From contig NZ_CP092074.1 in NCBI RefSeq assembly GCF_024138715.1, positions 496,001-560,000 on the forward strand: 64,000 bases of DNA. The letters run 5' to 3'. This DNA is from Emticicia sp. 21SJ11W-3 (GTDB lineage Bacteria > Bacteroidota > Bacteroidia > Cytophagales > Spirosomataceae). How positions within the stretch are numbered: the first letter of the stretch is position 1; the number at the start of each line of letters is the position of its first letter. This document shows positions 18,256-62,600 of this stretch, piece by piece. Position numbers and translations under genes: made by a program. The notes under the pieces are model-generated. The model saw only the letters and a program-made list of their open reading frames with translations. It was not told the DNA's origin and made no database searches.

Positions 18256-18266
18256 TATGAATAATT

Positions 18267-18325: not shown

Positions 18326-18454
18326 GTGCTATTTAGATAAATATTTTTTTATCAGAATAATTGGTGATTAATTTTTTATAGTCGCACAAATTCTTTATTT
18401 CGTAACCGAATAACCTTATTTATACTTAAGTAAACTCTTAATTTATTTAAACAG

Positions 18455-19270: not shown

Positions 19271-19366
19271 TCGTTTGGCGTTTGTTAAGCCGTCAAGTTA
19301 ATCTTATGGCTTTATAAACGGCAGGCACAGTTAAAATTTTTACTAACCGTATAATACTCAATATAT

Positions 19367-20968: not shown

Positions 20969-20991
20969 AAGGTTTAAATAAATTGAAGCTA

Positions 20992-35832: not shown

Positions 35833-36512
35833 CAGGAAACTACTTTCAGCACATAGCCCATCCCTATTTGTGTGTGCAGAAGCTTGGGTTCAAAGTCTTT
35901 ATCTATTTTTTTTCTTAAAAAATTCACATAAACCTCAATCACGTTGGTACCTGTATCAAAGGTAACATCCCAAATTTTTTCGGCCAGCTCGGCCTTTGCA
36001 ATAACCCTGCCCTGATTACGGATAAAGTACTCCAATAAGCCGAATTCTTTGGCTGTCAGGGTAATTTCCTGCCCGGCGCGTGTTACGGTTTTGGTGTCCA
36101 GATCCATTTCCAGGTCGGCAACTTTCAGGGTATTTGAGGTATGCATAATACCAATGTTGCGGCGGGTAAGTGCGCGTACCCGTGCCATCAATTCTCTGAA
36201 CTCAAACGGCTTGGCCAGGTAATCATCTGCCCCGGCATCCAGGCCTTCAATCTTGTCGTCAGTTGTACCCAAAGCCGTCAGAAGCAGCACCGGCGACGAA
36301 ACCCCTACTTCGCGCAGTTTCCGGCAAAGCTCCAGTCCATTCATGCCCGGAAGTATGATATCAGATATGATAAGTGCATATACCTGCCTTGTGGCCAGCT
36401 GGAAACCCATGGCACCGTCGTACGCTATATCAACTTCCCACTGCTGCTCTTCCAGGCCTTGTCTGATTAACTCAATGGTTCGTACTTCGTCTTCAATCAC
36501 TAAGATTTTCAT
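35832..36512 (-). CDS. OmpR-family response regulator
   Basis: This 226-residue protein has a receiver domain with ILVIEDE, phospho-acceptor Asp51 in ISDIILPGMNG, LLLTALGTTDDK and DDYLAKPF, then a winged-helix DNA-binding domain with LTAKEFGLLEYFIRNQGRVI and TNVIEVYVNFLRKKID. The start MKILVIEDE at 36512 is preferred; the longer frame to 36536 adds eight residues before the receiver strand. The histidine kinase follows with a one-base overlap. A GH105 gene lies upstream but is separated by a terminator. Confidence 0.95.
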   Translation of the reverse strand: MKILVIEDEVRTIELIRQGLEEQQWEVDIAYDGAMGFQLATRQVYALIISDIILPGMNGLELCRKLREVGVSSPVLLLTALGTTDDKIEGLDAGADDYLAKPFEFRELMARVRALTRRNIGIMHTSNTLKVADLEMDLDTKTVTRAGQEITLTAKEFGLLEYFIRNQGRVIAKAELAEKIWDVTFDTGTNVIEVYVNFLRKKIDKDFEPKLLHTQIGMGYVLKVVS

Positions 36513-36551
36513 GTCTGGTGGCTTTAGATTTACCAAAATTATAAAATTAAA

Positions 36552-40393: not shown

Positions 40394-43300
40394 CTATGGG
40401 TGAGCCTTTTTTTGAAGCTGATAAGATTGCACCTTGCCTGCATTGGCAAAAACCTGCATTACTCCGGTTTTTTTGAAGAACACACATTTACGGGTGTCAC
40501 CCTGAAAATTCAGGCCGCTTTGGTCAAAGTCAACAGGCTGAAACCCTCCCTTCCCGTTGCCCAGCAGCAGGGCGCCTTTGGATGCATCCTGCCTGCCCTG
40601 ATGGGCCTCATTGGCAAAGAAATTACCCGCTAAAAGTATGTCCTGGTGCCCATCCTGATTGAAGTCTTCGGATAGTATTGAAAAAACGGGCGATTGTTGT
40701 GCCTGCCAGGGGAGTGGCGTAAGGCTGAAACCGCCCTTGCCGGTATTTATACCTATACAGCTGCGTAGTTCATAGGCTTGCTTCTCAATAGCCCCTTTCT
40801 TATCGGTTTCGCTGAAGAGGTCATCAAACAAAACGCCGGAATAGTCTTTAAAATTGGTGTATCTTTTCCGGAAACTGTTGATTTGTAGGTTCAGGTTGTC
40901 GCGCGGATGCACCGGTACCAATTGATTGTTAACATACTGGCCCATAACTGGGTCAATTCTGCCGTTGTTATCAAAGTCTTTGGCCAATAACACAACCGGG
41001 TGTTGTGGGGTGGCCTTATAAAATGAGTTCAACCCTTCATTACCCAGCACTAAATCAATCAGGCCGTCATGGTTCAGGTCGGTAGTTGCTATTGTGTTCC
41101 ACCAGCCTTCTGTTCCGGCCTTTTGGGTGTGTGTAAACTGCCCTCGCTTGTTAATCAGTGTAGTCAGGGGCATCCATTCACCTACTACCACCAGATCGGT
41201 ATAGCCGTCTTGATTAATGTCTATGGCGGCGGCGTCGCACACCATTCCCAGCTTGCTCAGATAAGGTGCAACCTGAGCGGTGGCATCAGTAAATTTGCCT
41301 TTATCGTTTCTGAGTATATAGCTTGGAGGGGCAACCGGATATTGATTTGGAGAAACACGCCCGCCAATAAAAATGTCAAGGTCGTGGTCGTTGTCAATAT
41401 CAAGGGTGGTAATTGTACGGCTGCTTACGTGTAATAGCGGGAAATCAGCCGTGTTTTTAAAATTGCCCCGGCCATCATTGAGCCATAATTGTGGCCGGTA
41501 GGCTTCTGCTATATCCAGAGGTCGCTCGCAACTGCCTCCGGCAAAAATCAGATCCTGGTCTCCGTCATTATCAGCATCAAAAAAATGTATCGCCCCAACT
41601 TCCATCAAACGGCTGGTGGGTATTTCCTGTATCCTGCTGAATTTCCCATCCTTATTCTGCACAAAAACCTGTGTTTCGCTGCCATACAAAGCACCTCCTA
41701 TGGCAAGGTCTTCCAGCCCGTCGCCGTTGATATCCGCTTTAGCTACTGCCGGCCCGGGCTTCGAGAGCATTTTATGCAAGGTGGCTGTTTGGTTAAAGTC
41801 TATAAATGTAAAGTCTTTATGCTCAAAATCGGGTGCATGGTCAATTGTTTCAAAAAGCTTTTCTGCAATCAGGGGTGAGGGTTTACCATTTGTTGCGTCT
41901 TCATATTTCAGGGTAATTGTTGTGGTCGTACTGTCTATTTCATATTTTTTCTGCACTTTGCCATCAGGCCAGGTAATCATCAGAGAGTCGATTTTTTTCT
42001 TTTTTCCTAAACCTACTACGATGTTACGTGGCATGGAAGACAGGTAGCCCCTTACAGGGTAGTTTTCAAATAACAGCACTTCATGGCCAATCCAGGCGGT
42101 TATCCGCGTTCCTATGCCTGCTTTATTATTGGCATCACCCTTCAGGTTAATGGTAAGGCTGCTATTTTGCTTATCTGAATTGTTTCTGAAGACTGATGCT
42201 TCGCTATCTACATTATTTACTATCAAATCAAGGTCTCCGTCGTTATCAAGGTCGGCATAGGCGGCTCCATTGGCATAAGACAACTCATCCAGCCCCCAGC
42301 TTTCAGATACATTTTCAAAATCAAGGTTATTCCTGTTTCTGTAAGCATAGTTTTTCAGTGGTATTTCTGGCACCATTTCCATCAGCTTTTTACGGTTTTC
42401 TACCCTCGATTTGTTTGAGCCAAACATATCTTTGTTGCGGTAATAGCTGATAAAGTCCAGGTCTGTTACGTTTTTTCTATAACCATTGGTAATAAATATG
42501 TCTTTGAGTCCGTCATTGTCCAGGTCGCAAAGAAGGGTAGACCAGCTCCAGTCTGTTTTGGCTACACCGGCCAATAATCCGTTTTCGCTGAACTGCGGAA
42601 TCCCCCCCGCATTTCCCACATTGATTTGAAGCATGTTTCGCATATACTGCAACTCATAATTGTATGGTGCGTGTATACTCATTTCTTTTTTGTCGTAGTC
42701 GGGCTTGCCCAGCATTTGCTTCTGGCGGGCGTTATCTTCGGGCAGCATATCCAGCTGAAAAATATCTACTTTGCCATCCTGATTGATATCGGCGGCATCA
42801 ATACCCATACCAGACAAAGCCGTGTGAGGCATAGCGGTTTTAATTACATTCTCAAATTGTCCGTTGCCCTTATTGAGATAGAGTGCATCTGAGCTCAGGA
42901 AATCGTTCGAGCAATAGATGTCAGGCCGGCCATCATTATTATAATCAGACACCACCACGCCCAGCCCCAGGCCTTCATAAATGATTCCGGCCTCTGCCGA
43001 TACATCTCTGAACACCGGATGCCCGTCTGTTGTGCCATCATTTTTGAAAAGTTTGCTGGCAGAAGGATGCGACCCATCGTTCATGGCCGGCCTCAGGTAA
43101 CTTGGGTTCTGGGTATCAGGCGAGGTATTCAATAAGAAGGCATCCAGGTCTCCGTCTCCGTCATAGTCTAAGAAGGCGGTTTGGGTGGTGTAGCCTGCGT
43201 AATCTAATCCGTAGGCGGCGGCAGCTTCTTTAAAAGTGGGGGCAGAGGTCTTTTGATTAATGAATAACAGGTTATGTGTGTCAGCCATTGAGGGGTGGTA

Positions 43301-43690
43301 GGCTACCGATATATAAATGTCATCCCAGCCGTCATTATTAATGTCAATTATCGAAACCCCGTTGCACCATCGGTTGGTTGACAGCCCGGCCTGTTTGGTT
43401 ATTTTATCAAATTTCAGGTTTCCTTTATTGAGGTAAAGCTCTGAGCTTACCTGATTGCCCGTCAGGAACACATCCATTAAGCCATCATTGTTAAAGTCTC
43501 CGATTCCAACCCCACCACCATTATAAAAATTTGTAAATGTAAAAGCATTCAGCGAGTCGTTTGCCTTCAGTGAATTAACAAAATCAACGCCTGTTTCTGT
43601 TACAGCCAGTTTATTGAACAGCCTGGCGGTTTTTTTTTGGCACCCGGAGATAAATAATAGTAAAAGTAAAAATAATAGGGATGGTTTCAT
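40394..43690 (-). CDS. FG-GAP/VCBS repeat lipoprotein with UnbV/ASPIC domain
   Basis: This 1098-residue surface or periplasmic lipoprotein has a lipobox ISGC (Cys17) in the N-terminal signal; an upstream ATG at 43744 would add 18 residues and spoil the signal. At least 14 calcium-loop repeats of the D-x-N-x-D-G-x-x-D type (for example DFNNDGLMDVF, DINNDGWDDIY, DYDGDGDLDAF) form beta-propeller-like folds. A UnbV/ASPIC segment is present near 530-620 (IGTRITAWIGHEVL, then YPVRGYLSSMPRNIVVGLG). This type is often paired with SusC/SusD in Cytophagales. It is divergent from susC and shares its regulatory region. Confidence 0.9.
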   Translation of the reverse strand: MKPSLLFLLLLLFISGCQKKTARLFNKLAVTETGVDFVNSLKANDSLNAFTFTNFYNGGGVGIGDFNNDGLMDVFLTGNQVSSELYLNKGNLKFDKITKQAGLSTNRWCNGVSIIDINNDGWDDIYISVAYHPSMADTHNLLFINQKTSAPTFKEAAAAYGLDYAGYTTQTAFLDYDGDGDLDAFLLNTSPDTQNPSYLRPAMNDGSHPSASKLFKNDGTTDGHPVFRDVSAEAGIIYEGLGLGVVVSDYNNDGRPDIYCSNDFLSSDALYLNKGNGQFENVIKTAMPHTALSGMGIDAADINQDGKVDIFQLDMLPEDNARQKQMLGKPDYDKKEMSIHAPYNYELQYMRNMLQINVGNAGGIPQFSENGLLAGVAKTDWSWSTLLCDLDNDGLKDIFITNGYRKNVTDLDFISYYRNKDMFGSNKSRVENRKKLMEMVPEIPLKNYAYRNRNNLDFENVSESWGLDELSYANGAAYADLDNDGDLDLIVNNVDSEASVFRNNSDKQNSSLTINLKGDANNKAGIGTRITAWIGHEVLLFENYPVRGYLSSMPRNIVVGLGKKKKIDSLMITWPDGKVQKKYEIDSTTTTITLKYEDATNGKPSPLIAEKLFETIDHAPDFEHKDFTFIDFNQTATLHKMLSKPGPAVAKADINGDGLEDLAIGGALYGSETQVFVQNKDGKFSRIQEIPTSRLMEVGAIHFFDADNDGDQDLIFAGGSCERPLDIAEAYRPQLWLNDGRGNFKNTADFPLLHVSSRTITTLDIDNDHDLDIFIGGRVSPNQYPVAPPSYILRNDKGKFTDATAQVAPYLSKLGMVCDAAAIDINQDGYTDLVVVGEWMPLTTLINKRGQFTHTQKAGTEGWWNTIATTDLNHDGLIDLVLGNEGLNSFYKATPQHPVVLLAKDFDNNGRIDPVMGQYVNNQLVPVHPRDNLNLQINSFRKRYTNFKDYSGVLFDDLFSETDKKGAIEKQAYELRSCIGINTGKGGFSLTPLPWQAQQSPVFSILSEDFNQDGHQDILLAGNFFANEAHQGRQDASKGALLLGNGKGGFQPVDFDQSGLNFQGDTRKCVFFKKTGVMQVFANAGKVQSYQLQKKAHP

Positions 43691-43810
43691 GATTGATTTA
43701 TAGAAATTGATTGTGATTTTAATTAAATATTTCAAGAACTGCACGCGTAATTGTTAAAAAAGTACTAGTTAATAAAAAAAAAATCATACTTAGTTTTTTT
43801 TATCGTTTTT

Positions 43811-43829
43811 ATGTGTACATTTGACACAT
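43811..43829. promoter_or_regulatory. PUL operator copy A (inverted repeat)
   Basis: ATGTGT-ACATTTG-ACACAT: 6-bp arms, 7-base centre. The centre TACATTTG (43816-43823) also matches a promoter -7 box, so a bound protein would block it. It lies 92 bases before the susC ATG. Confidence 0.7.
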
Positions 43830-43836
43830 ATTTGAT

Positions 43837-43855
43837 TTGTGTGTATTTGACACAT
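43837..43855. promoter_or_regulatory. PUL operator copy B (inverted repeat)
   Basis: TTGTGT-GTATTTG-ACACAT, 26 bases downstream of copy A (centre to centre, 2.5 helical turns). The right halves TTTGACACATAT are identical in A and B. Confidence 0.7.
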
Positions 43856-43920
43856 ATCAAAATTATATAAAAAAACCTTATAAAACTTCTATTTGTACAA
43901 TTTATTTTAACTCTTAAAAA

Positions 43921-46900
43921 ATGAAGGTAAACAATTACAAACCGACCATCCAGCGAGGTTTATCACGCAAGTCGATAAGGCTGTTGCTGTTTTTCTTAAT
44001 GTCTTTATTTTCGGTTGGCTCACTGATGGCTCAGGTCAGAGGGGTAGTCAAAAACGAAAATGGCGAGGCATTTCAAGGAGTAAATGTTGTGATTAAGGGC
44101 GAAACCAAAGGAACAGTAACCGATGCTGCCGGCCGTTACGAAATTAAGGCTTCCAGCGAGTCTGTTCTGATATTTAGTTTCCTGGGGTATAAACCTGCTG
44201 AAATTAGAGTTGGTAATCAGAGGGAAATTAACGTAACCCTGGATGTAGATGCCGGTCTGATGGAAGAAATCGTGGTAGTTGGATACGGTACACAGAAGAA
44301 ATCGTCACTGACGGGTGCAGTGTCATCCATCACCAACAAAGAGCTGGCCACGCAACCGGTTATCAGCGCCACGCAGGCCATGCAGGGCCGGGTGGCAGGG
44401 GTATCTATTGTTAATAATAGCAGCCCCGGAGCTGAGCCAACCGTTCGTATCAGAGGGGTAGGGTCCATCAGCTTGAACCCAAATCCGCTTTATGTAATTG
44501 ACGGTGTGCCTGCCGGGGGCTTAAATACCATTGCACCCAACGATATTGAATCAATTGAAGTTTTAAAAGATGCCAGCGCTTCTGCCATTTATGGTTCAAG
44601 AGCGGCCAATGGCGTTGTTTTGATAACCACCAAAAAAGGAAAGGCCGGTAAACTTACCATCAGCCTTGACTCTTACGTGGGTACGCAATCTGCCTGGAAA
44701 ACCCTGGACCTGCTGAACAGCGAGCAGTATATCAAATATGGTACAGCTTTGCTGTCTGCTTCGGGTCAACCTATTCCGGGTCGTTTTTCGGCCATGAACA
44801 CCCCAATTTATGAGGGCGCCACTACCACATTTGCCCAAACCCAGACCAACTGGCAGGATGTAATGTTTAAAAATGGCCCGATTCATAACAACCAGCTTTC
44901 ATTGGCAGGCGGAACCGAGAAATCGAAGTTTTACCTTTCGCTGGGTAACTTCAAGCAGGAGGGTATCCTGCCATTTACTGAATATGGCCGCCAGAGCATC
45001 CGGTTAAACTCAGACCATAGCATTTCTAAATATATATCAATCGGGCAGACCATGATGGTGACGCAAGACAAACGCATTGCCGAAAGAGATGCCGGTGGCC
45101 GGAGCATGGTAATGAACATTATGCGTATGGTACCCTACTGGCCTGTAAGCGATCCGACAAAACTGGGTGGTTACAGTACTACTGCACAGGGGCTTGATGC
45201 AACCGACCCTGAAAACCCGATGCGTATTGCCGTACAGGAGCAAAAAGACCAGATAGACCGCTCTTTTAAAATGTTGGGTACAGTATATGCCGAAGTGAAG
45301 TTTACTAACTGGCTGCGTTACAAATTTACCATGGGTGGCGACTACTCAAGCTCTATTTTCAACGGGTTTGTGCCTATTTATAACGACGGTAACCGTAGCC
45401 GCCAGACAGCCGAGCTTACCCAGAACAGAGGGCAGTATTTTTCTACCATACTTACTAATCAGCTAACTTTCGATAAAACCTTCGGAAAGCATTACGTAAA
45501 CGCTACCGCGGTGCTTGAAAGACAGGATGCTACCTTCAAGTCTATCAACCTGACCGGCCAGAGACCTGACAATAACATTAAAGAGATACAAGGCGCCGCC
45601 AATATTAACGGTAATACCTCAAGTTCTGAAAACACCTTGTTGTCTTATGTGGGTCGTTTAAACTATGAGTACAACAGCAAATACCTTTTGAGTGCAACGG
45701 TACGCCGCGACGGCTCATCAAAATTTGCACCGGGCAATAAGTGGGGGACGTTCCCTTCGGTTTCATTGGGTTGGAGAATCAGCGAAGAAGCTTTCATGAA
45801 AGACATCGTAGCTATTAATGAACTGAAACTGAGAGGAAGTGTGGGTGTAACAGGTTATAACTCAATCGGAGACTATGACTGGCAACCGTTGATTTCAGCC
45901 AATAACACTAATTATTCGTTCGGTAATGCTTCTCAGTTGGGCTCTTATTTCAACAGCCTGGGTAACACCGGCCTGAGCTGGGAAGAAACAACCATGAAAA
46001 ACCTGGGTTTAGACCTTTCGTTGTTCAGCAACAAGGTAAGTATCTCAACCGAGATATACTCACGTAAAACAGATGGTCTATTGCTGCGTGTGCCTCTGCC
46101 AGACTCAGAAGGATATTCTAACAGCCCATTGGCCAACGTAGGTAGCATGGAAAACAGAGGTTTTGAGCTTTCTCTGGGTTATCATATTGATAAAAAAGAC
46201 TTCAAGTCAACCATTACAGGAACTTTTGACCTGGTAAGAAATAAAGTATTAAGCCTAGATACGCCAAATGCTACTATTAATGCAGGTAACAATGCCGATT
46301 TTGGTGGATTTGACATCACCCGCACAGAAGCAGGGAGTTCGTTACAGTCGTTCTACGGCTGGCAGGTAGAGAAAATCTTCCAAAATGAAGGCGAAATAGC
46401 GGCGGCCAACGGTGCAGACGGTAATTCAGGCACTCCGTATCAGAACGAGGCTACCAAGCCCGGCGATATCAAGTTCAGAGATCTGAACAACGACGGTAAG
46501 ATTGATGCCAATGACAGAACCTATCTGGGCAGCTACCTGCCTAAATTCTCTTATGGTCTTAACTACTCAGGAACCTACAAAAACTTCGATTTCTCATTGT
46601 TCTTCCAGGGTGTGCAAGGCAATAAAATCTATAATGGAACCAAGGTGATTGGTCAGGGTATGTTAAGACTATTCAATGCCACTACTGATGTGCTAAATGC
46701 CTGGACACCATCTAACACCAACACAGATGTGCCAAGAGCCGTTAGCGGTGACCCTAACCAGAATGCAAGAACTTCTGACAGATTTATTGAAGATGGATCG
46801 TACCTGCGCCTGAAAAACCTGACCGTAGGTTATACCATACCATCAGACAAAATTTCTAAGCTGACCAATAATGTGCTTACCAGAGCCAGAATTTATTTTA

Positions 46901-47052
46901 CCAGCCAGAACCTGCTCACTTTTACCAAGTATAGCGGCTATGACCCTGAGATTGCCTCAAGAAACGGTAACCTGCTTACCAATGGGGTAGATTACGGTAT
47001 GTACCCTCAGGCGCGCACGCTTACTATTGGTTTAAACCTTGGTTTTAATTAA
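43921..47052 (+). CDS. SusC/RagA-family TonB-dependent outer-membrane transporter
   Basis: This 1043-residue barrel imports oligosaccharides with TonB energy. It has a long signal (LRLLLFFLMSLFSVGSLMAQ-like), a carboxypeptidase-D regulatory domain (VRGVVKNENGEAFQGVNVVI near 38), a TonB-plug region with VVVGYGTQKKSSLTGAVSS near 118 and VLKDASASAIYGSRAANGVV near 216. A 22-strand barrel follows, ending YPQARTLTIGLNLGFN. Its SusD partner follows by 33 bases. Two copies of the PUL operator lie in its upstream region, so it is likely repressed without the substrate. Confidence 0.97.
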   Translation: MKVNNYKPTIQRGLSRKSIRLLLFFLMSLFSVGSLMAQVRGVVKNENGEAFQGVNVVIKGETKGTVTDAAGRYEIKASSESVLIFSFLGYKPAEIRVGNQREINVTLDVDAGLMEEIVVVGYGTQKKSSLTGAVSSITNKELATQPVISATQAMQGRVAGVSIVNNSSPGAEPTVRIRGVGSISLNPNPLYVIDGVPAGGLNTIAPNDIESIEVLKDASASAIYGSRAANGVVLITTKKGKAGKLTISLDSYVGTQSAWKTLDLLNSEQYIKYGTALLSASGQPIPGRFSAMNTPIYEGATTTFAQTQTNWQDVMFKNGPIHNNQLSLAGGTEKSKFYLSLGNFKQEGILPFTEYGRQSIRLNSDHSISKYISIGQTMMVTQDKRIAERDAGGRSMVMNIMRMVPYWPVSDPTKLGGYSTTAQGLDATDPENPMRIAVQEQKDQIDRSFKMLGTVYAEVKFTNWLRYKFTMGGDYSSSIFNGFVPIYNDGNRSRQTAELTQNRGQYFSTILTNQLTFDKTFGKHYVNATAVLERQDATFKSINLTGQRPDNNIKEIQGAANINGNTSSSENTLLSYVGRLNYEYNSKYLLSATVRRDGSSKFAPGNKWGTFPSVSLGWRISEEAFMKDIVAINELKLRGSVGVTGYNSIGDYDWQPLISANNTNYSFGNASQLGSYFNSLGNTGLSWEETTMKNLGLDLSLFSNKVSISTEIYSRKTDGLLLRVPLPDSEGYSNSPLANVGSMENRGFELSLGYHIDKKDFKSTITGTFDLVRNKVLSLDTPNATINAGNNADFGGFDITRTEAGSSLQSFYGWQVEKIFQNEGEIAAANGADGNSGTPYQNEATKPGDIKFRDLNNDGKIDANDRTYLGSYLPKFSYGLNYSGTYKNFDFSLFFQGVQGNKIYNGTKVIGQGMLRLFNATTDVLNAWTPSNTNTDVPRAVSGDPNQNARTSDRFIEDGSYLRLKNLTVGYTIPSDKISKLTNNVLTRARIYFTSQNLLTFTKYSGYDPEIASRNGNLLTNGVDYGMYPQARTLTIGLNLGFN

Positions 47053-47085
47053 GAAATTGCCAAAAAAGATTTAAAATACTTCGAA

Positions 47086-48636
47086 ATGAAAAAAACAGTA
47101 TTGTTATCAGGTTTATTAGGCCTGGCCACCGTGATGAGTTGTAATGACTCTGTTTTGGACAAGGTAAATCCGAACGGTGTAACTTTTGAGACATATTTTA
47201 CGAACGATAATGAGTTGGTAGCTGGTGTGAATGGCGCTTATGCCATTATTCAGGGTTTTGGCCTTGCAGCCCGTGAGTGGTTCTTTGTTCATGACCTGAG
47301 AGGCGATGAAATGGCCACAGGTGGCGGGCAGCTTGAAACCCCCCGTAACCAGTTACTTATTGGGGTGAACGACCCCGCTAACTCTGTTGCTAATTCAGTA
47401 TGGACAGGTTGGTTCAGAACCATCCACCGTGCCAATGTGGTGCTTGAGAGTGCCAATAAAACCACGGGGGCGTCTTTCTCTACTGCCATAAAAAACCGTG
47501 TAACCGGCGAGGCGAAGTTTTTGCGCGCCTGGGCTTATTATGAACTGGCCACCCTATGGGGCGGTGTGCCACTTTATACTGAATACGTTAAGTCTGTTGA
47601 GGGCGCCAAGGCCAGATCAAGCCAGCAAGATGTGTACAAACAGGTAATTGATGACCTTAAAGCGGCCGAAGGCCTGCTACCTGCTACCTACGCAGCCAGT
47701 GAATATGGCCGTGCCACCAAAGGTGCCGCACAGGTATTGCTTGCCCGTACTTACCTGCAACTGGGCGACTACACCAGCGCTAAAGCCGAACTTGAAAAAG
47801 TAGTGAGCTCCGGCCTTTACAAGCTGGTTGATAACTACCTTGACCTGACTAACGAGGAAGGCGAGTTTAACTCAGAATCCATCTTCGAAGTCGTGTTTTC
47901 GCCGTCTAATGGTGCCTTTAACTGGAGTGGCCCGGATGGCGACGGAACCAGTGCTCAGGAAGAAACCATCAGAACACAGGAGTATTCGCCTATTGGCTGG
48001 AGAAACCTGATACCGTCTGACAAAATGATTAACAGCTATGAAAGCACAGTTAAGGGTGATGCCAAAAACGACCCGCGCTTTGATATGTCTTTCTGGAAGG
48101 CCGGAGATAAATTCAATAACGGTAACGATGTAATGAAAGACGAAAATGTGCAGGGTAATTCGTCAAAGTTAAACGGACAAACGCTTAAAATCAGCTGGAG
48201 AAAATATTCGGTGCTTTATAAGTCAAATTCAGGATTCACCACCAGCGGTATCAATATGAGAATTATGCGCTATGCAGATGTATTGCTGATGCTGGCCGAA
48301 TGTGAGAACGAATTGGGTAATTCGACAAGGGCGATTCAGCTGATGAATCAGGTGCGTGCCAGAGCATCGGTAAATATGCCTCCTTATCCAACAGCCAATT
48401 ATCCTGTCGGTTCAAAAGCACAGGTATTTGCAGCCCTACAGCATGAGCGCTATGTAGAACTGGCTGCCGAGCAGGTGCGTAACTTTGATATTATCAGATG
48501 GCGGAAAAACAAAAAAGCCACAGCAGAACCTATTTCTTATTTTGTAGCAAGCAAGCATGAATTACTGCCTCTGCCACAAACAGAAATTGATAATAATCCG
48601 AAGATTGATCCTAAAGACCAGAATCCGGGCTATTAA
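47086..48636 (+). CDS. RagB/SusD-family nutrient-binding lipoprotein
   Basis: This 516-residue surface lipoprotein captures glycan and hands it to SusC. It has a lipobox MSC (Cys19), TPR-like helical pairs (VTGEAKFLRAWAYYELATLWG near 142 and KGAAQVLLARTYLQLGDY near 208), LMLAECENELGN and RHERYVELAAEQ-type helices, and ends in LPLPQTEIDNNP. It is complete and co-transcribed with susC. A 10-bp hairpin follows the stop, and the enzyme operon has its own promoter. Confidence 0.96.
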   Translation: MKKTVLLSGLLGLATVMSCNDSVLDKVNPNGVTFETYFTNDNELVAGVNGAYAIIQGFGLAAREWFFVHDLRGDEMATGGGQLETPRNQLLIGVNDPANSVANSVWTGWFRTIHRANVVLESANKTTGASFSTAIKNRVTGEAKFLRAWAYYELATLWGGVPLYTEYVKSVEGAKARSSQQDVYKQVIDDLKAAEGLLPATYAASEYGRATKGAAQVLLARTYLQLGDYTSAKAELEKVVSSGLYKLVDNYLDLTNEEGEFNSESIFEVVFSPSNGAFNWSGPDGDGTSAQEETIRTQEYSPIGWRNLIPSDKMINSYESTVKGDAKNDPRFDMSFWKAGDKFNNGNDVMKDENVQGNSSKLNGQTLKISWRKYSVLYKSNSGFTTSGINMRIMRYADVLLMLAECENELGNSTRAIQLMNQVRARASVNMPPYPTANYPVGSKAQVFAALQHERYVELAAEQVRNFDIIRWRKNKKATAEPISYFVASKHELLPLPQTEIDNNPKIDPKDQNPGY

Positions 48637-48648
48637 TGCAAAGCCTGA

Positions 48649-48676
48649 GAATAGACCGTTGAAAGGCGGTCTATTC
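48649..48676 (+). terminator. hairpin after susD
   Basis: GAATAGACCG pairs perfectly with CGGTCTATTC over an 8-base loop, 12 bases after the susD stop. The T-run is weak, so partial termination is likely. Confidence 0.5.
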
Positions 48677-48865
48677 TTACCTGATTGATGTGATAGCCGT
48701 GTAAACACTTGGGCGATGCTACCCAAAACAATTTTTGCCTGATTTTCAATTATTTAAAGTTTTTCCGACTCCGTACAAAAAAGCCCTCTTCAGTGAAATG
48801 GTAGTGCTGGCAGATGACCAGGCAAAATTAAAAATGTAAAATTAATTCTTTTTTTTCTACAAAAA

Positions 48866-48896
48866 TTTGGCTGAGCAGTATTAATAAGTATATTTG
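48866..48896 (+). promoter_or_regulatory. promoter of the PUL enzyme operon
   Basis: TTTG (48866-48869), 19 bases, TATATTTG (48889-48896): an exact match to both boxes. The predicted start is near 48903, giving a 75-base leader to the GH95 gene. Confidence 0.75.
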
Positions 48897-48912
48897 TGTA
48901 TAAATGACACAT
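48894..48912. promoter_or_regulatory. PUL operator copy C, overlapping the promoter
   Basis: TTGTGT-ATAAATG-ACACAT shares TGACACATAT with copies A and B. It starts inside the -7 box and covers the predicted transcription start, the classical repressor position. Confidence 0.72.
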
Positions 48913-48977: not shown

Positions 48978-51434
48978 ATGAAAAAAAAACTACTCATTAT
49001 CCTGTTCATTTTCGGAAAAGGAATAGCATCCGGGCAGGTTCCTTTAAAACTTTGGTATAAGCAGCCATCCGGCAATACCTGGGAAAACGCACTACCTATT
49101 GGTAATGGGCGCCAGGGTGCCATGATATACGGCAATGTGGAGAAAGAAATCATTCAGTTGAACGAACATACAGTATGGAGTGGAAGCCCTAACAGAAACG
49201 ATAACCCACTGGCGCTTGAGAACCTGGCAGAAATAAGAAGGCTGATTTTTGATGGTAAGCACAAGGAAGCAGAGAATCTGGCCAACAAAGCCATTATTAC
49301 CAGGAAATCGCACGGACAAAAGTTTGAACCCGTAGGCAGCCTCAACCTTTTGTTTGAGGGGCATGAAAAATATACAGATTATAACCGCGAACTAGACATC
49401 GAAAAGGCCATTGCCAAAACCAGTTATAAGGTAGGCGAGGTGGTCTATACCCGGGAGGCATTTGCTTCACTGACCGACAGGGTTATTGTAATGAGAATCT
49501 CGGCCAGCAAGGCAGGCCAGTTGTCATTTACGGCAGGGTATTCGTCTCCGCAAAAAAGAAAAACCGTTGCCACCACCACAAACCGCGAACTAACCATAGC
49601 AGGTACAACCAATGACCACGAAACCGTAAAAGGACTGGTTAACTTTAAGGGTATTACCCGTATTCAGCCGGAGGGGGGGCATCTGACACTAACCGATAGT
49701 ACCCTGACCTTGACAGGCGCCAATGCGGCGGTTATCTTTATTTCAGTTGCTACTAATTTTAATAATTATCAGGACATCAGCGGTGACCAGAACAGCCGCG
49801 CCACCGAGTATATGAACAAGGCCGGCAGCAAAACCTATGCCGCCCTGCTCAATGCCCACGTAGCGGCATATCAGAAATTCTTCAATCGGGTAAAACTTGA
49901 TTTAGGTACTACGCCTGCCGCTCAGGCGCCTACCAACGAACGCCTCCGCAACTTCAGAAACGTAAACGACCCCCACCTGGTAACCCTGTACTATCAGTAT
50001 GGTCGCTACCTCTTGATATCTTCATCTCAACCCGGCGGGCAGCCGGCTAATCTGCAGGGTATCTGGAACCACCGTGTCAACCCACCCTGGGACAGCAAGT
50101 ATACCATCAATATCAATGCTGAGATGAATTACTGGCCGGCCGAAAAAACAAACCTTTCAGAGCTGCATGAGCCGTTCCTGACCATGGTTAAAGAACTGGC
50201 AGTAACAGGCCGAGAAACAGCCAGAAGCATGTATGGAGCCAGAGGGTGGATGGCCCATCACAATACAGACATCTGGCGGGCCACCGGCGCCATAGACGGG
50301 GCTTTCTGGGGTATGTGGACCGCAGGCGGCGGCTGGGTAAGTCAGCATCTGTGGGAGCATTACCTCTACACCGGCGACAAAACCTTTCTGGCGTCGGTAT
50401 ATCCGGTTCTGAAAGATGCCGCTTTGTTTTATGTTGATTTTCTGGTTGAGCACCCCAAATACAAATGGCTGGTGGTGAATCCGGGTAATTCGCCTGAAAA
50501 CGCTCCGGCTGCCCACGGCGGCTCATCTCTGGATGCCGGCACAACTATGGACAACCAGATAGTAATGGATGTACTCAACAACGCCATCAGGGCAGCCGGT
50601 TTGTTAAATAAAGACAAGTCGCTGGTAGATACCCTTTTGCAGGTAAGAAGCAGGCTGGCGCCGATGCAGGTTGGCAAGCATAATCAGTTGCAGGAATGGC
50701 TGGACGATGTAGACGACCCCAACGACCATCACCGCCATGTTTCTCATTTGTATGGCTTGTATCCTTCCAACCAGATTTCGGCTTACCGTACACCCGAATT
50801 GTTTGCAGCCTCAAAGAACACACTTATACAAAGGGGCGATGTGTCTACCGGTTGGAGCATGGGCTGGAAAGTAAACTGGTGGGCCAAATTGCAGGACGGC
50901 AACCATGCCTATTCTCTGATTCAGAATCAACTTACACCTTTGGGAACCAATAAAGACGGTGGCGGTACTTACAATAATCTGTTTGATGCCCACCCGCCTT
51001 TTCAGATAGACGGAAACTTTGGCTGTACCTCAGGCATTACCGAAATGCTGATGCAGAGCTCAGACGGTGCCGTTCATGTATTGCCTGCCCTGCCGGATGT
51101 ATGGCAAACAGGCAGTATTGCAGGCCTGCGAACCAGAGGGGGTTTCGAGCTTGTAGAAATGAAATGGGAAAAAGGCAAAATAACCAGGCTAACGGTAAAA
51201 TCTACCTTAGGTGGCAACCTTCGCTTGCGCCTGCCTAATGATGTGCAATTGGCTGGTGGAAAAATACTTAAACCGGCCGTTGGTAAAAACCCTAATCCAT
51301 TTTTCGAGGTGGACGATACCCCAAAGGCTATTATTTCCGGGCAATCGACCATCCAGCCGCTGATTCTGAAAGAGACCAGATTATTTGATATATCCACCCG
51401 GAAAGGACAAACCATTGAACTAACCGGATTGTAA
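48978..51434 (+). CDS. GH95 alpha-L-fucosidase/alpha-L-galactosidase
   Basis: This 818-residue exported inverting glycosidase begins with the GH95 start LWYKQPSGNTWENALPIGNG, GAMIYGN and NEHTVWSGSP. The central (alpha/alpha)6 barrel has LQGIWNHRVNPPWDSKYTIN and NINAEMNYW, whose asparagines (378 and 380) match the spacing of the known catalytic Asn pair in Bifidobacterium AfcA. WVVNPGNSPEN and the substrate-site DGNFGCTSGITEML follow. The length is typical. Fucose or L-galactose on xylan, xyloglucan or pectin side chains are all possible substrates. It is the first enzyme gene under the operator-controlled promoter. Confidence 0.94.
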   Translation: MKKKLLIILFIFGKGIASGQVPLKLWYKQPSGNTWENALPIGNGRQGAMIYGNVEKEIIQLNEHTVWSGSPNRNDNPLALENLAEIRRLIFDGKHKEAENLANKAIITRKSHGQKFEPVGSLNLLFEGHEKYTDYNRELDIEKAIAKTSYKVGEVVYTREAFASLTDRVIVMRISASKAGQLSFTAGYSSPQKRKTVATTTNRELTIAGTTNDHETVKGLVNFKGITRIQPEGGHLTLTDSTLTLTGANAAVIFISVATNFNNYQDISGDQNSRATEYMNKAGSKTYAALLNAHVAAYQKFFNRVKLDLGTTPAAQAPTNERLRNFRNVNDPHLVTLYYQYGRYLLISSSQPGGQPANLQGIWNHRVNPPWDSKYTININAEMNYWPAEKTNLSELHEPFLTMVKELAVTGRETARSMYGARGWMAHHNTDIWRATGAIDGAFWGMWTAGGGWVSQHLWEHYLYTGDKTFLASVYPVLKDAALFYVDFLVEHPKYKWLVVNPGNSPENAPAAHGGSSLDAGTTMDNQIVMDVLNNAIRAAGLLNKDKSLVDTLLQVRSRLAPMQVGKHNQLQEWLDDVDDPNDHHRHVSHLYGLYPSNQISAYRTPELFAASKNTLIQRGDVSTGWSMGWKVNWWAKLQDGNHAYSLIQNQLTPLGTNKDGGGTYNNLFDAHPPFQIDGNFGCTSGITEMLMQSSDGAVHVLPALPDVWQTGSIAGLRTRGGFELVEMKWEKGKITRLTVKSTLGGNLRLRLPNDVQLAGGKILKPAVGKNPNPFFEVDDTPKAIISGQSTIQPLILKETRLFDISTRKGQTIELTGL

Positions 51435-51456: not shown

Positions 51457-53136
51457 ATGAAGACCCTTGTTTCCAGGCTTTTAATGATTACGCTTTTATG
51501 CCTGACCATCAGCTTTGCTCAATCACAAACCATCATAGTAAATCCTATTCTTACCGGGTTTTATCCTGACCCGAGTATAGTAAAGGTAGGGCCGGATTAT
51601 TACATCGTCAATTCAACGTTTTCCTATTTTCCGGGTCTGCCCATTATGCACAGCAAAGACCTGAAAAACTGGAAACAGATAGGAAATGTGATTGACCGCC
51701 CGTCTCAACTTGATTTTATGGGCGAACGCATGACCCGTGGCTTGTTTGCACCGGCCATCAGCTATTATAAAGGTACTTTTTATGTTACCTGCACCGACAT
51801 AGACCATGACGGCAACTTTGTGGTAACGGCCAAAAATCCGGCAGGCCCCTGGAGCAATCCGGTGAAGATTCCGCAAGTGCGAGGTATTGATCCGTCTATC
51901 TACTTTGATGAAGAAACCGACAAAGCCTATATCATTTATAACAGCGATGCCCCAGACAGAAAACCCCTGTATTCAGGCCATAGAACAATCAGGATGTATG
52001 AATTTGATTATCAGAATCTGAAGGTGGTGGGCGAAGAAAAACAACTGGTAAACGGCGGTGTAGATCTTTCTAAAAAACCTGTCTGGATAGAAGGTCCGCA
52101 TATTCTGAAACGTAACGGATGGTATTATTTATATGCAGCCGAAGGGGGTACCTCTGTTAACCACTCTGAAGTGGTGCTACGCAGTAAATCAGTATGGGGG
52201 CCTTACATACCCTTTGAAGGAAACCCGATTTTAACCCAGAGAGAATTACCTGCCAACAGGCCTTACCCGATCACATCAGCAGGCCATGCACAGTTTGTTG
52301 AAGGCCCAGATGGCAAAATGTACAGCATTTTTCTGGCCGTGCGCCCTTATGAGGGAGATTATTACAATACGGGTCGCGAAACCTTCATCGCCCCGGTTAC
52401 CTGGAAAGACGATTGGCCGATGATTGAACATGGCGAAAAGGCCATTCCGTACAGCTATAAAATAGGCATTAAAGAAATAAAACACAAAGGTGGTTTACCG
52501 CAATCGGGTAATTTTCAGTACACCATAACTTTTGACAAAGGACTAGACTACTCATGGCTGTTTATGCGTACGGTTGACAGCAGCGCTTTCAAAACCTCAA
52601 AGGCCACCGGTTTAACCCTGAAACTAAAACCAGAAACGATTTCAGAACTCGGTAATCCTGCTTTTGTGGGCAGACGCCAGCAGCACCTGAATAGTACTGC
52701 CGAAACACAGTTGAGCTTTACGCCCGGGTCTGATAAAGAAAAAGCAGGGCTGGTGATTTTTCAGGACGAACGCCATTATTACTTCATTGCGCAATCAAAA
52801 AATGAAGGCAAAGATGTAATTCAGCTTTATAAAAGCCAGCCGAAAGGGAAATCGACCGATTTAATAACCGAAGTTCCGCTGACCACCAATACAGGCAAAG
52901 TGTTTTTCAGAATCACCTCTGCCGGTGCAGACTACGGCTTTTACTACTCAACAGATGCGAAAAACTGGCAATTGCTAAAAGACAAAGTAGATGGTAAATT
53001 CCTGAGTACCAAAGAGGCGGGTAGTTTCATTGGCTGTGTGTTTGGCTTGTATGCCACCTCAACTGGTGAAAGCTCAGTGAACAGCGCTTCTTTCAGGTTT
53101 TTCAAATACAGTGGTAATGACCCCATGCTGAAATGA
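51457..53136 (+). CDS. GH43 family beta-xylosidase/arabinofuranosidase-like, with C-terminal beta-sandwich
   Basis: This 559-residue exported enzyme has a five-blade propeller with the three acidic residues in FYPDPS (Asp38), RGIDPSIYFD (Asp near 148) and WIEGPHILKRNG (Glu near 212). A C-terminal beta-sandwich (about 345-559) contains QLSFTPGSDKEKAGLVIFQD and SVNSASFRFFKY. This order fits GH43 subfamilies of exo-acting beta-xylosidases that trim xylo-oligosaccharides. Its last bases overlap the next GH43 gene by four, so they are translated together. Confidence 0.93.
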   Translation: MKTLVSRLLMITLLCLTISFAQSQTIIVNPILTGFYPDPSIVKVGPDYYIVNSTFSYFPGLPIMHSKDLKNWKQIGNVIDRPSQLDFMGERMTRGLFAPAISYYKGTFYVTCTDIDHDGNFVVTAKNPAGPWSNPVKIPQVRGIDPSIYFDEETDKAYIIYNSDAPDRKPLYSGHRTIRMYEFDYQNLKVVGEEKQLVNGGVDLSKKPVWIEGPHILKRNGWYYLYAAEGGTSVNHSEVVLRSKSVWGPYIPFEGNPILTQRELPANRPYPITSAGHAQFVEGPDGKMYSIFLAVRPYEGDYYNTGRETFIAPVTWKDDWPMIEHGEKAIPYSYKIGIKEIKHKGGLPQSGNFQYTITFDKGLDYSWLFMRTVDSSAFKTSKATGLTLKLKPETISELGNPAFVGRRQQHLNSTAETQLSFTPGSDKEKAGLVIFQDERHYYFIAQSKNEGKDVIQLYKSQPKGKSTDLITEVPLTTNTGKVFFRITSAGADYGFYYSTDAKNWQLLKDKVDGKFLSTKEAGSFIGCVFGLYATSTGESSVNSASFRFFKYSGNDPMLK

Positions 53137-54710
53137 AAAGACTAGTACAAATATGGGTAACATGCCTGGCTCTGGGTATTATACCTAGCGTACAGGCTCA
53201 GGTAAGTAAGGCAAGAAACCCGATTATTTATGCCGATGTGCCAGACATGGCCATGATACGTGTAGGCAAGAATTACTACATGAGCAGCACCACCATGCAC
53301 ATGAGCCCGGGGGTTCCGCTGATGAAGTCCACCGATTTAGTGAACTGGCAGATGATGGGCTATGTATATGACACCCTGGCCAATATTCCGGCTTTGAATC
53401 TGACAGATGGCAAGGGTACTTACGGGCGGGGTTCGTGGGCAAGCTGTATCAGGTATCATCAGGGTATCTATTATGTTACCACTTTTGCGCAAACAACCGG
53501 CAAAACGCATATTTATAGCACCAGAAATATAGAAAAAGGCCCCTGGAAAGAGGTGTCATTTGCACCAAGTCTGCACGACCACAGCTTGTTTTTTGATGAC
53601 GACGGCCGGGTGTACATGGTTTACGGAAACGGTAAACTGAGTATCATAGAGCTGAATGCCGATGTGTCCGGCCTTAAAAAAGGGGGCATTAACCAGACAC
53701 TTATTGAAAATGCCAATGCCCCTGCTGGCGATAAAATTATGCTTGGTGCCGAGGGCTCGCAGTTGTTCAAGGTAAACGGTAAGTACTACCTTTTTAATAT
53801 TGTATGGCCCCGGGGTGGCATGCGTACGGTACTGGTTCACCGGGCTGATACAATTACCGGCCCGTGGGAAGGGCGCGTGGCCTTGCAGGATTTGGGTGTG
53901 GCCCAGGGCGGCCTGATAGATACGCCCGACGGCCGCTGGTTTGCCTACCTGTTCCGTGATTTTGGTGGAGTGGGGCGGATTCCGTATCTGGTGCCTGTCA
54001 AATGGGAAGACGGCTGGCCGGTGCTGGGCGAAAACGGCAAAGTACCGGAAACGCTGGACTTACCGGCAGGAAAGGGGCTGATTCCCGGAATAGTGCATTC
54101 AGATGAGTTTACACGCAAAAAAGGTGAGCCTGCCTTGCCTTTGGTCTGGCAATGGAACCACAACCCCGATAATACCTTGTGGTCGGTAACTGACCGCAAA
54201 GGTTTTTTAAGATTAAAAACAGGTAGACTGGATACTTCTTTTGTTTTAGCACGCAATACACTTACCCAAAGAACCGTAGGGCCTGAGTCATCAGGCTCTA
54301 CTTTACTTGATGTTTCAAATCTGAAAGAAGGCGATTTCGCCGGTCTGGGCCTATTGCAGAAAAACTATGGGCTGGTGGGTGTAAAAGCTACCTCAGAAGG
54401 TAAATTACTTGTGATGATAAGTGCCAATACAGGTAAACCCGTTGAGATTGAACGTATTCCGCTTACCCGAAGTACGGTTTACCTGAAAGCCGAATGTAAT
54501 TTCAGAGACAGAAAAGATACTGCCCTTTTTTATTACAGCCTTGATGGCAAAACCTGGCAACGAATTGGCGAACCCCTGAAAATGCCTTATACCATACCCC
54601 ATTTTATGGGCTACCGATTCGGGCTTTTTAATTATGCTACTAAGCAGCCAGGCGGCTTTGCCGACTTTGATTTTTTCAGGATCACAGATACTATTTCAAG
54701 CAATCCATAA
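53133..54710 (+). CDS. second GH43 family enzyme
   Basis: This 525-residue exported GH43 has a different subgroup pattern from its neighbour. It shows NPIIYADVPDMAMIR near residue 29 (base Asp38 likely), HDHSLFFDDDGRVYMVYG near 148 (Asp) and LGAEGSQLFKVNGKYYLFN near 206 (catalytic Glu). A C-terminal sandwich has LLDVSNLKEGDFAGLGLLQ. Its ATG overlaps the upstream stop (ATGA). Two GH43 subtypes side by side imply two linkages in the same substrate, such as xylose and arabinose. The propeller is complete and the gene is part of the PUL enzyme operon. Confidence 0.92.
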   Translation: MKRLVQIWVTCLALGIIPSVQAQVSKARNPIIYADVPDMAMIRVGKNYYMSSTTMHMSPGVPLMKSTDLVNWQMMGYVYDTLANIPALNLTDGKGTYGRGSWASCIRYHQGIYYVTTFAQTTGKTHIYSTRNIEKGPWKEVSFAPSLHDHSLFFDDDGRVYMVYGNGKLSIIELNADVSGLKKGGINQTLIENANAPAGDKIMLGAEGSQLFKVNGKYYLFNIVWPRGGMRTVLVHRADTITGPWEGRVALQDLGVAQGGLIDTPDGRWFAYLFRDFGGVGRIPYLVPVKWEDGWPVLGENGKVPETLDLPAGKGLIPGIVHSDEFTRKKGEPALPLVWQWNHNPDNTLWSVTDRKGFLRLKTGRLDTSFVLARNTLTQRTVGPESSGSTLLDVSNLKEGDFAGLGLLQKNYGLVGVKATSEGKLLVMISANTGKPVEIERIPLTRSTVYLKAECNFRDRKDTALFYYSLDGKTWQRIGEPLKMPYTIPHFMGYRFGLFNYATKQPGGFADFDFFRITDTISSNP

Positions 54711-54732
54711 ACCGTATGGCCTCTTTAAAACT

Positions 54733-55581
54733 ATGAAAAATGTCTTTGTTTACCTGCTGATTTCTGCTTCCCTGCTGGCAGGGCAGGTTTGTGTGGCTCA
54801 GAACCCCAACTTTCATATCTACCTCTGCATAGGTCAGTCAAATATGGAAGGTGCCGGGCGCATTGAAGCACAGGATACCCTAACTATTGACCCCCGCTTT
54901 AAAATACTGGAAGCCGTAGATTGCCCCCAGATTAACCGCGCAAAAGGGCAGTGGTATACAGCCAAACCGCCATTGTGCCGCTGCAGAACAGGGCTTTCGC
55001 CAGCTGATTACTTTGGCCGTGCCATGCTTGAAACCATGCCCAATGAGCAATCGCTCGGGCTCGTACATGTTGCCGTGGCAGGTAGCAAACTTGAAATTTT
55101 TGATAAAGTAAAGTATAAGGCTTATCTGGATTCATCCGCCAAAGAAAAACCCTGGATGATTAATATGGCCAAAGAATATGGCGGCAACCCGTACGAAAGG
55201 CTGATTGAAATGGCCAGAATTGCCCAGAAATCGGGCGTTATTAAAGGCATTCTGTTGCATCAGGGAGAGTCAAACACCGGCGACAAAACCTGGCCCGCAC
55301 AGGTAAAGAAACTGTATGACGATATTCTGGCCGATTTGAACCTGGCTCCAAACTCTATTCCTCTGCTTGCCGGAGAGGTGGTGGGTGCAGACCAGGGCGG
55401 TAAATGTGCCAGCATGAACGAAATTATAGCTACGCTGCCTCAAACTCTGCCAAAAGCCGTCGTTGTTTCGTCAAAAGGCCTGCCTGCAGTGCCAGACAAA
55501 CTGCATTTCAGCAGTGAGGGGGTGCGAGATTTCGGCAAGAGGTACGCTGCGGCTCTACTGGTTGCTGAAGGAAGAAAATAA
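54733..55581 (+). CDS. SASA/CE6-type acetylesterase
   Basis: This 282-residue exported SGNH-like esterase has the nucleophile Ser36 in CIGQSNMEGAG, a GILLHQGESNTGD segment near 173 and the C-terminal D-x-x-H pair in VPDKLHFSSEG. Family members remove acetyl groups from xylan (CE6) or sialic acids; the PUL setting favours xylan. The ATG at 54733 gives a clean signal peptide (FVYLLISASLLAGQVCVAQ); a longer frame back to 54634 overlaps the GH43 gene and is rejected. It follows the second GH43 gene by 22 bases. Confidence 0.9.
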   Translation: MKNVFVYLLISASLLAGQVCVAQNPNFHIYLCIGQSNMEGAGRIEAQDTLTIDPRFKILEAVDCPQINRAKGQWYTAKPPLCRCRTGLSPADYFGRAMLETMPNEQSLGLVHVAVAGSKLEIFDKVKYKAYLDSSAKEKPWMINMAKEYGGNPYERLIEMARIAQKSGVIKGILLHQGESNTGDKTWPAQVKKLYDDILADLNLAPNSIPLLAGEVVGADQGGKCASMNEIIATLPQTLPKAVVVSSKGLPAVPDKLHFSSEGVRDFGKRYAAALLVAEGRK

Positions 55582-55677
55582 ACGCACAAAAGACACTTTG
55601 CCAATAGATTAGATGAATTGCTGAAACTTATTTATAATAGTATTATTTTTCTAAAATCAACCTTAAATAAAACTATC

Positions 55678-56583
55678 ATGAAAAGGGTATATCTTATATT
55701 CTGCATTTCAGCATTTTTCAATCTTGCCCAAAGTTTGGTTACCATTGCTCAGGAAAAAATAATATTGTACCCGAATGGCGTTCCGAACGCAAAGCCCGCT
55801 GCCGTAAAAGAGACAGGGGCAGAAAACGGCGTTTACAAAGGCATCACCAACCCGACTCTGGAATACTACAAGGCTAATCCGGCACTATCTACGGGCGCTG
55901 CTGTGATTGTGGTTGCCGGCGGAGGGTATGGCGTAATTGTCTATAACGGAGAAGGCATAAATACGGCCAAAGCGCTGGCAGAAAAAGGGATAGCCGCCTT
56001 TGTGTTAAAGTATCGCCTGCCGAGTGACGAAATAATGAACGATAAGAAAATCGGCCCCTTGCAGGACGCCCAGCAAGCCATAAAGCTTGTGAGAGACAAT
56101 GCCGCCGGATGGGGCATTGACCCAAATAAAATCGGAATCATGGGTTTTTCGGCCGGAGGGCATCTGGCCAGCACTGCCGCCACGCATTTCGAAAAAGCCT
56201 GGGTGAGTAATCCTGAAAAAACAAGCCTTCGGCCAGACTTCCAGATACTGGTTTATCCGGTTATCAGTATGCTTGACAGCCTCACGCATCATGGCTCAAG
56301 AGATAACCTGCTCGGCAAAAATCCATCTTCAGAAGACAAACAGTATTTTTCAAACGATTTGCAAATCAAAGCCAATACACCACCAGCGTGGCTTACCCAT
56401 GCTGCAGATGATAAAGTAGTGGATGTAGACAACAGCATTGCCTACTTTGAGCGGCTCAGAAAACATAAAGTAGACGTAGAAATGCATATTTTCCCGAAGG
56501 GTGACCATGGATTTATATTCAGGCATCCGGGCTGGATGAACCCCTTGTTTGATTGGCTAAAACGTTATGGTTGGACCAAATAA
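55678..56583 (+). CDS. alpha/beta-hydrolase, acetyl-xylan esterase-like
   Basis: This 301-residue exported esterase has an oxyanion loop VAGGGYG near 79, catalytic Ser158 in GFSAGGHLAS, a likely Asp in HAADDKVV near 243 and His in FPKGDHGF near 279. It belongs to the BD-FAE/axe-type carbohydrate deacetylases. The ATG at 55678 gives the signal peptide; 20 extra residues from 55618 are unlikely. The 96-base gap upstream is the longest in the operon. It is followed after 13 bases by a type B carboxylesterase. Confidence 0.9.
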   Translation: MKRVYLIFCISAFFNLAQSLVTIAQEKIILYPNGVPNAKPAAVKETGAENGVYKGITNPTLEYYKANPALSTGAAVIVVAGGGYGVIVYNGEGINTAKALAEKGIAAFVLKYRLPSDEIMNDKKIGPLQDAQQAIKLVRDNAAGWGIDPNKIGIMGFSAGGHLASTAATHFEKAWVSNPEKTSLRPDFQILVYPVISMLDSLTHHGSRDNLLGKNPSSEDKQYFSNDLQIKANTPPAWLTHAADDKVVDVDNSIAYFERLRKHKVDVEMHIFPKGDHGFIFRHPGWMNPLFDWLKRYGWTK

Positions 56584-56596
56584 ATAACTGAAACTA

Positions 56597-58162: not shown

Positions 58163-58181
58163 ATTCATCTAACTAATTACA

Positions 58182-61398
<3,217 letters not shown>

Positions 61399-61423
61399 TT
61401 GATTTAAGCTTTAAATAAAAACT

Positions 61424-62590: not shown

Positions 62591-62600
62591 AACTAAAATC

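Follow-up and report, generated by a model that had tools for sequence, protein, structure and literature searches.

Predicted AraR operators in front of a susCD pair and a GH95/GH43 enzyme operon of Emticicia sp. 21SJ11W-3

A 64-kb stretch of the genome of Emticicia sp. 21SJ11W-3 (bases 496001–560000 of a single 5.18-Mb contig, referred to as the window) contains a polysaccharide utilization locus (PUL) with three copies of a 19-bp inverted repeat, placed before susC and before a GH95-led enzyme operon. We conclude with high confidence that these repeats are operators of AraR, a repressor of the NrtR family. Arabinose-free AraR would repress susC, the enzyme operon, araR and araB, and L-arabinose would release them. 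The argument starts from the sites, their scarcity and conservation, and the regulator gene with its neighbours, all of which were observed; the binding of AraR, L-arabinose as its effector, repression, expression and the release of arabinose by GH43/GH51/GH127 enzymes are predicted from sequence. This reading places a GH95/GH43/esterase PUL, in whose cluster no hybrid two-component system (HTCS) was found, under the arabinose repressor of the cell. It suggests that the locus is switched by a monosaccharide product and not by an oligosaccharide sensed in the periplasm. The predicted operator sequences are ready for a reporter test.

Inverted repeats and the regulator gene

The first-pass annotation had located the three copies, and each was recovered at its coordinates with no mismatch to the pattern WTGTGTN7ACACAT:

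43811–43829, no strand: ATGTGTACATTTGACACAT, predicted operator 1 of the susC promoter (exact pattern match)
43837–43855, no strand: TTGTGTGTATTTGACACAT, predicted operator 2 of the susC promoter (exact pattern match)
48894–48912, no strand: TTGTGTATAAATGACACAT, predicted operator of the enzyme operon (exact pattern match)

Every copy is followed by AT, which extends the right side common to all three to TGACACATAT. Operators 1 and 2 lie 26 bp apart, centre to centre. In the window the symmetric form WTGTGTN7ACACAW has three sites versus 0.02 expected from 100 dinucleotide shuffles, and none of the shuffles (0/100) reached three sites.

A regulator gene had been suspected to the right of position 64000. 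It was indeed found, 6.9 kb past the end of the window:

genome 566940–567638 (window-equivalent 70940–71638), + strand as the PUL, between the PUL and araB: araR, 232 amino acids (Pfam, PDB match)

The protein comprises the domains NUDIX (PF00293), NrtR_WHD (PF21906) and AraR_C (PF19368), all above the curated cut-offs. Its best PDB match is 5bs6 (E 1e-67), AraR of Bacteroides thetaiotaomicron (BtAraR), with 99 out of 216 aligned residues identical. Upstream of araR, genes for esterases, GH127 and GH51 are contiguous with the enzyme run of the window. Downstream follow ribulokinase, L-arabinose isomerase and L-ribulose-5-phosphate epimerase (araB, araA, araD), and further on a transaldolase/fructose-6-phosphate aldolase, an SSF symporter and an aldose epimerase. 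The residues that contact L-arabinose in BtAraR, Arg34, Arg86 and His131, are kept as Arg33, Arg85 and His130. Nine of the 10 residues of the ligand pocket are identical, as are six of seven in its hydrophobic wall, where Val92 is replaced by Thr91. The Nudix catalytic signature is impaired (REUXEE reads RILYDL); for AraR proteins a signature with two or three glutamates substituted has been described (PMC4666351). Because of the pocket identity together with the gene content, we propose arabinose as the inducer.

A scan of the whole contig found exact matches to WTGTGTN7ACACAT in only five places (seven strand matches), and none for the backwards control. The two places outside the window are 567690, after araR and before araB, and 5047677, at the start of a second NrtR-type regulator gene. 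The scan with one mismatch, which had been proposed as a check, gave 22 forward and 25 reverse matches versus 19 and 14 for the control. Since these counts are near the control, such matches are mostly background, and only two of them were taken up, on positional support: the perfect palindrome TTGTGTTATATTTACACAA at 566784, which precedes araR, and TTGCGTAGTTTTTACACAT at 5047713, the second site at the second NrtR-type gene. Between 539811 and 567708 (28 kb), five sites of the symmetric form were counted versus 0.01 expected; the genome-wide expectation is 1.8 (mononucleotide composition, 174 kb of the genome).

The bare pattern TGTGTN7ACACA has 12 places in the genome, about twice the roughly 6 expected by base composition. 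Six of them were not counted as operators: four lie in open frames, one between convergent genes and one 128 bp before a gene. This excess and the four unassigned places in open frames would fit a structural or chance repeat without operator function. The backwards control, however, has a single place, and the clustering within 28 kb, the promoter position and the conservation described below make such an origin highly improbable.

The first-pass annotation had placed the repeats only before the two PUL transcription units and read them as the operator of a dedicated, probably repressing, regulator. Within the window this placement holds. The coupling of susCD and the enzyme operon through an operator of one regulator, probably a repressing one, finds support in the anatomy and the conservation. 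Genome-wide, the sites at araR and araB speak against both an exclusive placement and a dedicated regulator. Since the same kind of site precedes araR and araB, the regulator is better described as the arabinose regulator of the cell extended over the PUL.

The claimed overlaps with promoter boxes were also found. Operator 1 contains one candidate box, and the enzyme-operon operator begins within the last three bases of another:

43816–43823, + strand: TACATTTG, candidate -7 box inside operator 1 (sequence, consensus match)
48889–48896, + strand: TATATTTG, candidate -7 box overlapped by the enzyme-operon operator (sequence, promoter alignment)
48866–48869, + strand: TTTG, candidate -33 box, 19 nt 5' of the -7 box (sequence)

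The consensus used was TAnnTTTG (-7)/TTTG (-33) from PMC7366714. Because the operators lie over candidate -7 boxes, we propose repression by exclusion. The tandem sites before susC, together with the finding of no other regulator in the cluster, would also allow AraR to act as an activator, or to bind in its arabinose-bound form. The position over the -7 boxes, however, is suited to keeping the polymerase away, and L-arabinose reduces the affinity of BtAraR for DNA (PMC4666351), so that we regard both alternatives as very unlikely.

Based on these observations we propose the following mechanism of repression by AraR. Every GTGT-N7-ACAC palindrome would be bound by a dimer of arabinose-free AraR. 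The susC promoter would be covered by two adjacent dimers and the -7 box of the GH95-led operon by one, thereby keeping RNA polymerase off these core promoters. Through the sites at araR and araB, AraR would control its own gene and arabinose catabolism in the same way. L-arabinose, presumably released by the GH43/GH51/GH127 enzymes, would bind to the Nudix pocket and the DNA would be freed. As an outcome, the plant-fibre enzymes would be made only with arabinose present.

Conservation and a possibly competing paralogue

An araR orthologue (at least 85% identical) is present in 9 of the 11 genomes of the genus; in G074 both this gene and araB are missing. In the fetched stretches, GTGT-N7-ACAC precedes araB in 8/8 genomes, araR in 6/8 and the GH95/GH43 operon in 8/8; genome G110 was left out of the last count, its contig ending inside GH95. 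Tandem sites 25–26 bp apart precede susC in all four genomes where susC was fetched, with a spacing of 25 bp in G094, G027 and G085. Operator 1 is identical in G094 and G027 and has one base changed in G085. The aligned promoters of the enzyme operon keep TANATTTGTGT......GACACAT in 8/8 genomes. In G027 (L079) the locus yielded no GH95 and the site stands before GH43; G094 retains no more than a short GH95 match (L076:9777-10121). The operator is kept in both.

A scan of genome contigs confirmed at least 577 relatives, and the best 80 loci were analysed. The nearest among these are metagenome-assembled genomes of Emticicia sp. (91%) and Arcicella sp. (88%). Regulators with Asp178-Arg179-Arg180-Asn181 in the recognition helix (residue numbers follow an ungapped alignment to BtAraR) have a non-coding GTGT-N7-ACAC at 25 of 27 loci (31 sites; control pattern 2); the class includes L138–L140, for which the helix was confirmed. 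With Lys, Asn or Asp at position 179, such sites were found at 16 of 53 loci (17 sites; control 1). Lacihabitans soyangensis (L150) has AraR, a GTGT-N7-ACAC site and a GH95–GH43 pair in one locus. AraR-type palindromes were also seen between other genes at L087:3267, L089:3468 and L090:3228, the last two at the same gene pair; they are not near arabinose genes in the stretches examined.

Several observations weigh against the assignment to AraR. Two genomes, G085 and G049, have no exact site upstream of araR. Across the 11 genus genomes, TGTGTN7ACACA occurs in 56 places versus 20 for the backwards control. Since this enrichment of the bare 17-mer is modest, position and clustering have to carry the argument. 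In G123 no araR orthologue was found, and yet the site between GH51 and araB is kept (L088:3455-3471). This genome is 90% complete, so that araR may be absent from the assembly only. On the protein side, Lys179, Arg180, Asn181, Lys184, Lys204 and Arg205, called absolutely conserved in AraR (PMC4666351), read Arg, Arg, Asn, Arg, Thr and Lys here. Only Arg180 and Asn181 are identical among the six DNA contacts; three of the others are Lys/Arg swaps, and Lys204 is replaced by Thr. Because these contacts differ, we do not assign the protein to the Bacteroides type with its site but regard it as a divergent AraR whose operator is a variant. Finally, a paralogue (genome 5046878–5047693) shares the helix LDRRNF with AraR and has near-identical sites at the promoter of its own gene, so that the operators might be common to both proteins.

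This paralogue, the second NrtR-type regulator mentioned above, might be the main reader of the sites, or both proteins might compete for them; the PUL would then answer to a second sugar. Its helix residues equal those of AraR, and TTGTGTTTATTGTACACAT and TTGCGTAGTTTTTACACAT stand at its own start. Orthologues of the paralogue (at least 81% identity), however, occur in only 4 of the 11 genus genomes (G000, G027, G074 and G094). Sites at the PUL or the ara genes are still present in G085, G062, G049, G102, G110 and G128 (for G110 the visible ones are those of the ara genes only), where the best match to the paralogue is 50% identical or less. We therefore consider a main or competing role of the paralogue very unlikely and retain AraR as the regulator.

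In the region of the paralogue (L008:2891-11724), the NrtR-type gene is flanked on one side by a group of MFS transporter, FGGY kinase and TIM-barrel isomerase, and on the other by a glucose/sorbosone-dehydrogenase-type protein with PKD, CBM6 and cytochrome c domains. Another regulator of NrtR/AraR type (L056:8195-8941, - strand, genome 772195–772941) has the helix FDKRNF and the wing KG; no sugar-catabolic gene was found among ten scanned neighbours and no palindrome before the gene. Throughout the family there are matches with 51–58% identity to AraR, and these may be orthologues of this L056 regulator. Two more NrtR-type paralogues (L125:8542-9216 and L126:8291-8983) have palindromes of their own, TTGTCTCATTTTGTGACAA and TTGTCTAATTTTTAGACAA, directly 5' of the genes.

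Three other classes of operator were rejected. For LacI, GntR or HTCS regulators, no such gene was found among the Pfam-scanned ORFs of the PUL–ara cluster. The arms of the repeat differ from the Crp-like motif wwwTATGTTnTAnAACATAwww (PMC3878776). The two paralogues that have GTCT-type sites were discarded as readers of the repeats, since the window has no TTGTCN9GACAA within one mismatch and palindromes of the GTATC or GTCTC type were not found either.

Covariation of helix residues and operator bases

The two helix classes among the analysed loci differ at base -8 of the left arm, just outside GTGT. This base is T in 29 of the 31 sites of the Arg179 class, whose loci with sites (25/27) all have Lys206, and A in 16 of the 17 sites of the class with Lys or Asn at 179 and Gly206. 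Fisher's test of T against A gives 1.7e-11, calculated without phylogeny correction; the difference possibly reflects one or few changes. With both arms counted the contrast is weaker (T in 45/62 for the Arg179 class, A in 21/34 for the Lys/Asn179 class).

Base -5 was analysed in a set of 203 distinct NrtR-type regulators (77 named, 126 unnamed). A palindrome with GT/AC arms lies at most 350 bp upstream in 97 of the 203, versus 22 for the backwards control, and in 92 of these palindromes the arms agree at -5. Arg180 goes with G at -5 in 26/28 cases, Asn180 with C in 36/38, Gly180 with C in 6/6, and Ser, Thr or Ala at 180 with A in 16/20 (C in three, T in one). In the crystal structure of BtAraR, Arg180 intercalates beside base -5 and Asp178 contacts its partner C (PMC4666351). 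The main gap in this relation is a group of 84 Arg180 regulators whose own genes have no palindrome in front (52 DK/DN/DD, 32 DRRN); many of these have a site before araB instead.

On balance we lean towards a protein-to-DNA code followed by the sugar-sensing NrtR-type regulators of Bacteroidota. Residue 180 together with 178 would set base -5 (Arg180 with Asp178 giving GTGT, Asn180 GTCT, and Ser, Thr or Ala at 180 mostly GTAT). Base -8 would be set by residues 179 and 206 (A for Lys/Asn179 with Gly206, T for Arg179 with Lys206). A PUL that lacks a local regulator might in this way be assigned to a distant one by its sequence alone, as in the present case, and the intercalating Arg180 would mark the GTGT class only. 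If the covariation holds at the bench, NrtR-type regulons would become predictable. A search for AraR operators in Spirosomataceae or for a helix-to-base relation found none in open-access PMC titles and abstracts (subscription literature and RegPrecise lay outside its scope).

Genes of the locus and comparison with known regulators

The genes around the operators were assigned by Pfam:

40394–43744, - strand: FG-GAP/UnbV_ASPIC protein, divergent from susC
43921–47052, + strand: susC-type TonB-dependent transporter
47086–48636, + strand: susD-type lipoprotein
48978–51434, + strand: GH95 glycoside hydrolase, leading the enzyme operon
51457–53136, + strand: GH43 glycoside hydrolase
53133–54710, + strand: second GH43 glycoside hydrolase
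54634–63680, + strand: run of esterase genes (SASA, BD-FAE, COesterase, three Pfam Esterase) with an alpha-L-fucosidase (58182–60266)

Beyond 64000 the run continues with further esterases, GH127, GH51, araR and araB (Pfam), so that a single + strand run spans from susC to the arabinose genes; the operon limits are set by gene spacing only and are thus putative. The FG-GAP/UnbV_ASPIC gene is possibly controlled by the same two susC operators. In G094 and G027 it is also divergent from susC with the sites in between.

As the first-pass annotation had observed, the Pfam scan of 35 window open reading frames (ORFs; between 15775 and 63680, the part to the left as well as small and antisense ORFs being outside the scan) gave no LacI, GntR or HTCS gene nearby; an AraC-type gene was not found among the same ORFs, nor was a LacI, GntR or HTCS gene among the 13 ORFs of L006 (Pfam), a result that covers the cluster and not the rest of the genome. 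The window does contain a classical OmpR-type two-component pair (34456–36536) and a sigma gene of the extracytoplasmic function type (29074–29547). Next to another susCD cluster, some 32 kb past the end of the window, lies a LacI-type gene (L007:12764-13933). On the opposite strand, a GH10/SusD/SusC cluster adjoins the ara operon (L006:16599 to L007:2996); its sole pattern match within one mismatch (genome 580941) lies inside the susC reading frame. Genes for gliding and type IX secretion (PorP/SprF, GldL, GldM, GldN) are located at window positions 15775–21867.

AraR has been described in Bacteroides and Prevotella (PMC4666351, PMC3878776); the name AraR is also given to other proteins (PMC5507952, PMC10766802). 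Within the NrtR family, the ADP-ribose-responsive NrtR of Shewanella oneidensis (PDB entries 3gz5/3gz6) is related to AraR of Emticicia with a phmmer E-value of 5e-29 but controls NAD genes with ADP-ribose as effector (PMC4666351). The Emticicia protein scores 137.9 of 400 bits, below the equivalog cut-off of the NCBIfam model for NrtR. XylR of Bacteroides (BT0791) belongs to the same family and also regulates a sugar operon (PMC3878776, PMC4666351), but is only 33% identical to BtAraR (PMC4666351).

The closest parallel is BtAraR (BT0354), likewise a Nudix and winged-helix protein encoded beside ara catabolic genes, with tandem sites at a main promoter and PUL genes (susCD, GH43, GH51) within its regulon. 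Its assay DNA sites, which we cut out of the published oligonucleotides for electrophoretic mobility shift assays and crystallization, are AAAGTGTTACTTTTACACCCA, AGAGTGTATTTGATACACCAA and AAAGTGTAAAAAAGACACTTA (PMC4666351). All are GTGT-N7-ACAC, equal in core and spacing to the window repeats. L-arabinose is a negative effector of BtAraR that lowers its DNA affinity, and the dimer covers 25 bp (PMC4666351), so that the two susC sites, 26 bp apart, fit two neighbouring dimers. The systems differ in the outer base of the left arm, A in the three published sites (AGTGT) and T here (TGTGT), and in the protein by K179R, K184R, R205K, K204T and G206K. The tandem spacing is 24 bp in the BT0356 oligonucleotide versus 26 bp here. 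Three PULs of B. thetaiotaomicron have been described as controlled by both AraR and an HTCS, whereas the present cluster yielded no HTCS gene. Switches of this kind are already known from gut bacteria, and the operator of Emticicia is most likely a variant of it with a changed outer base.

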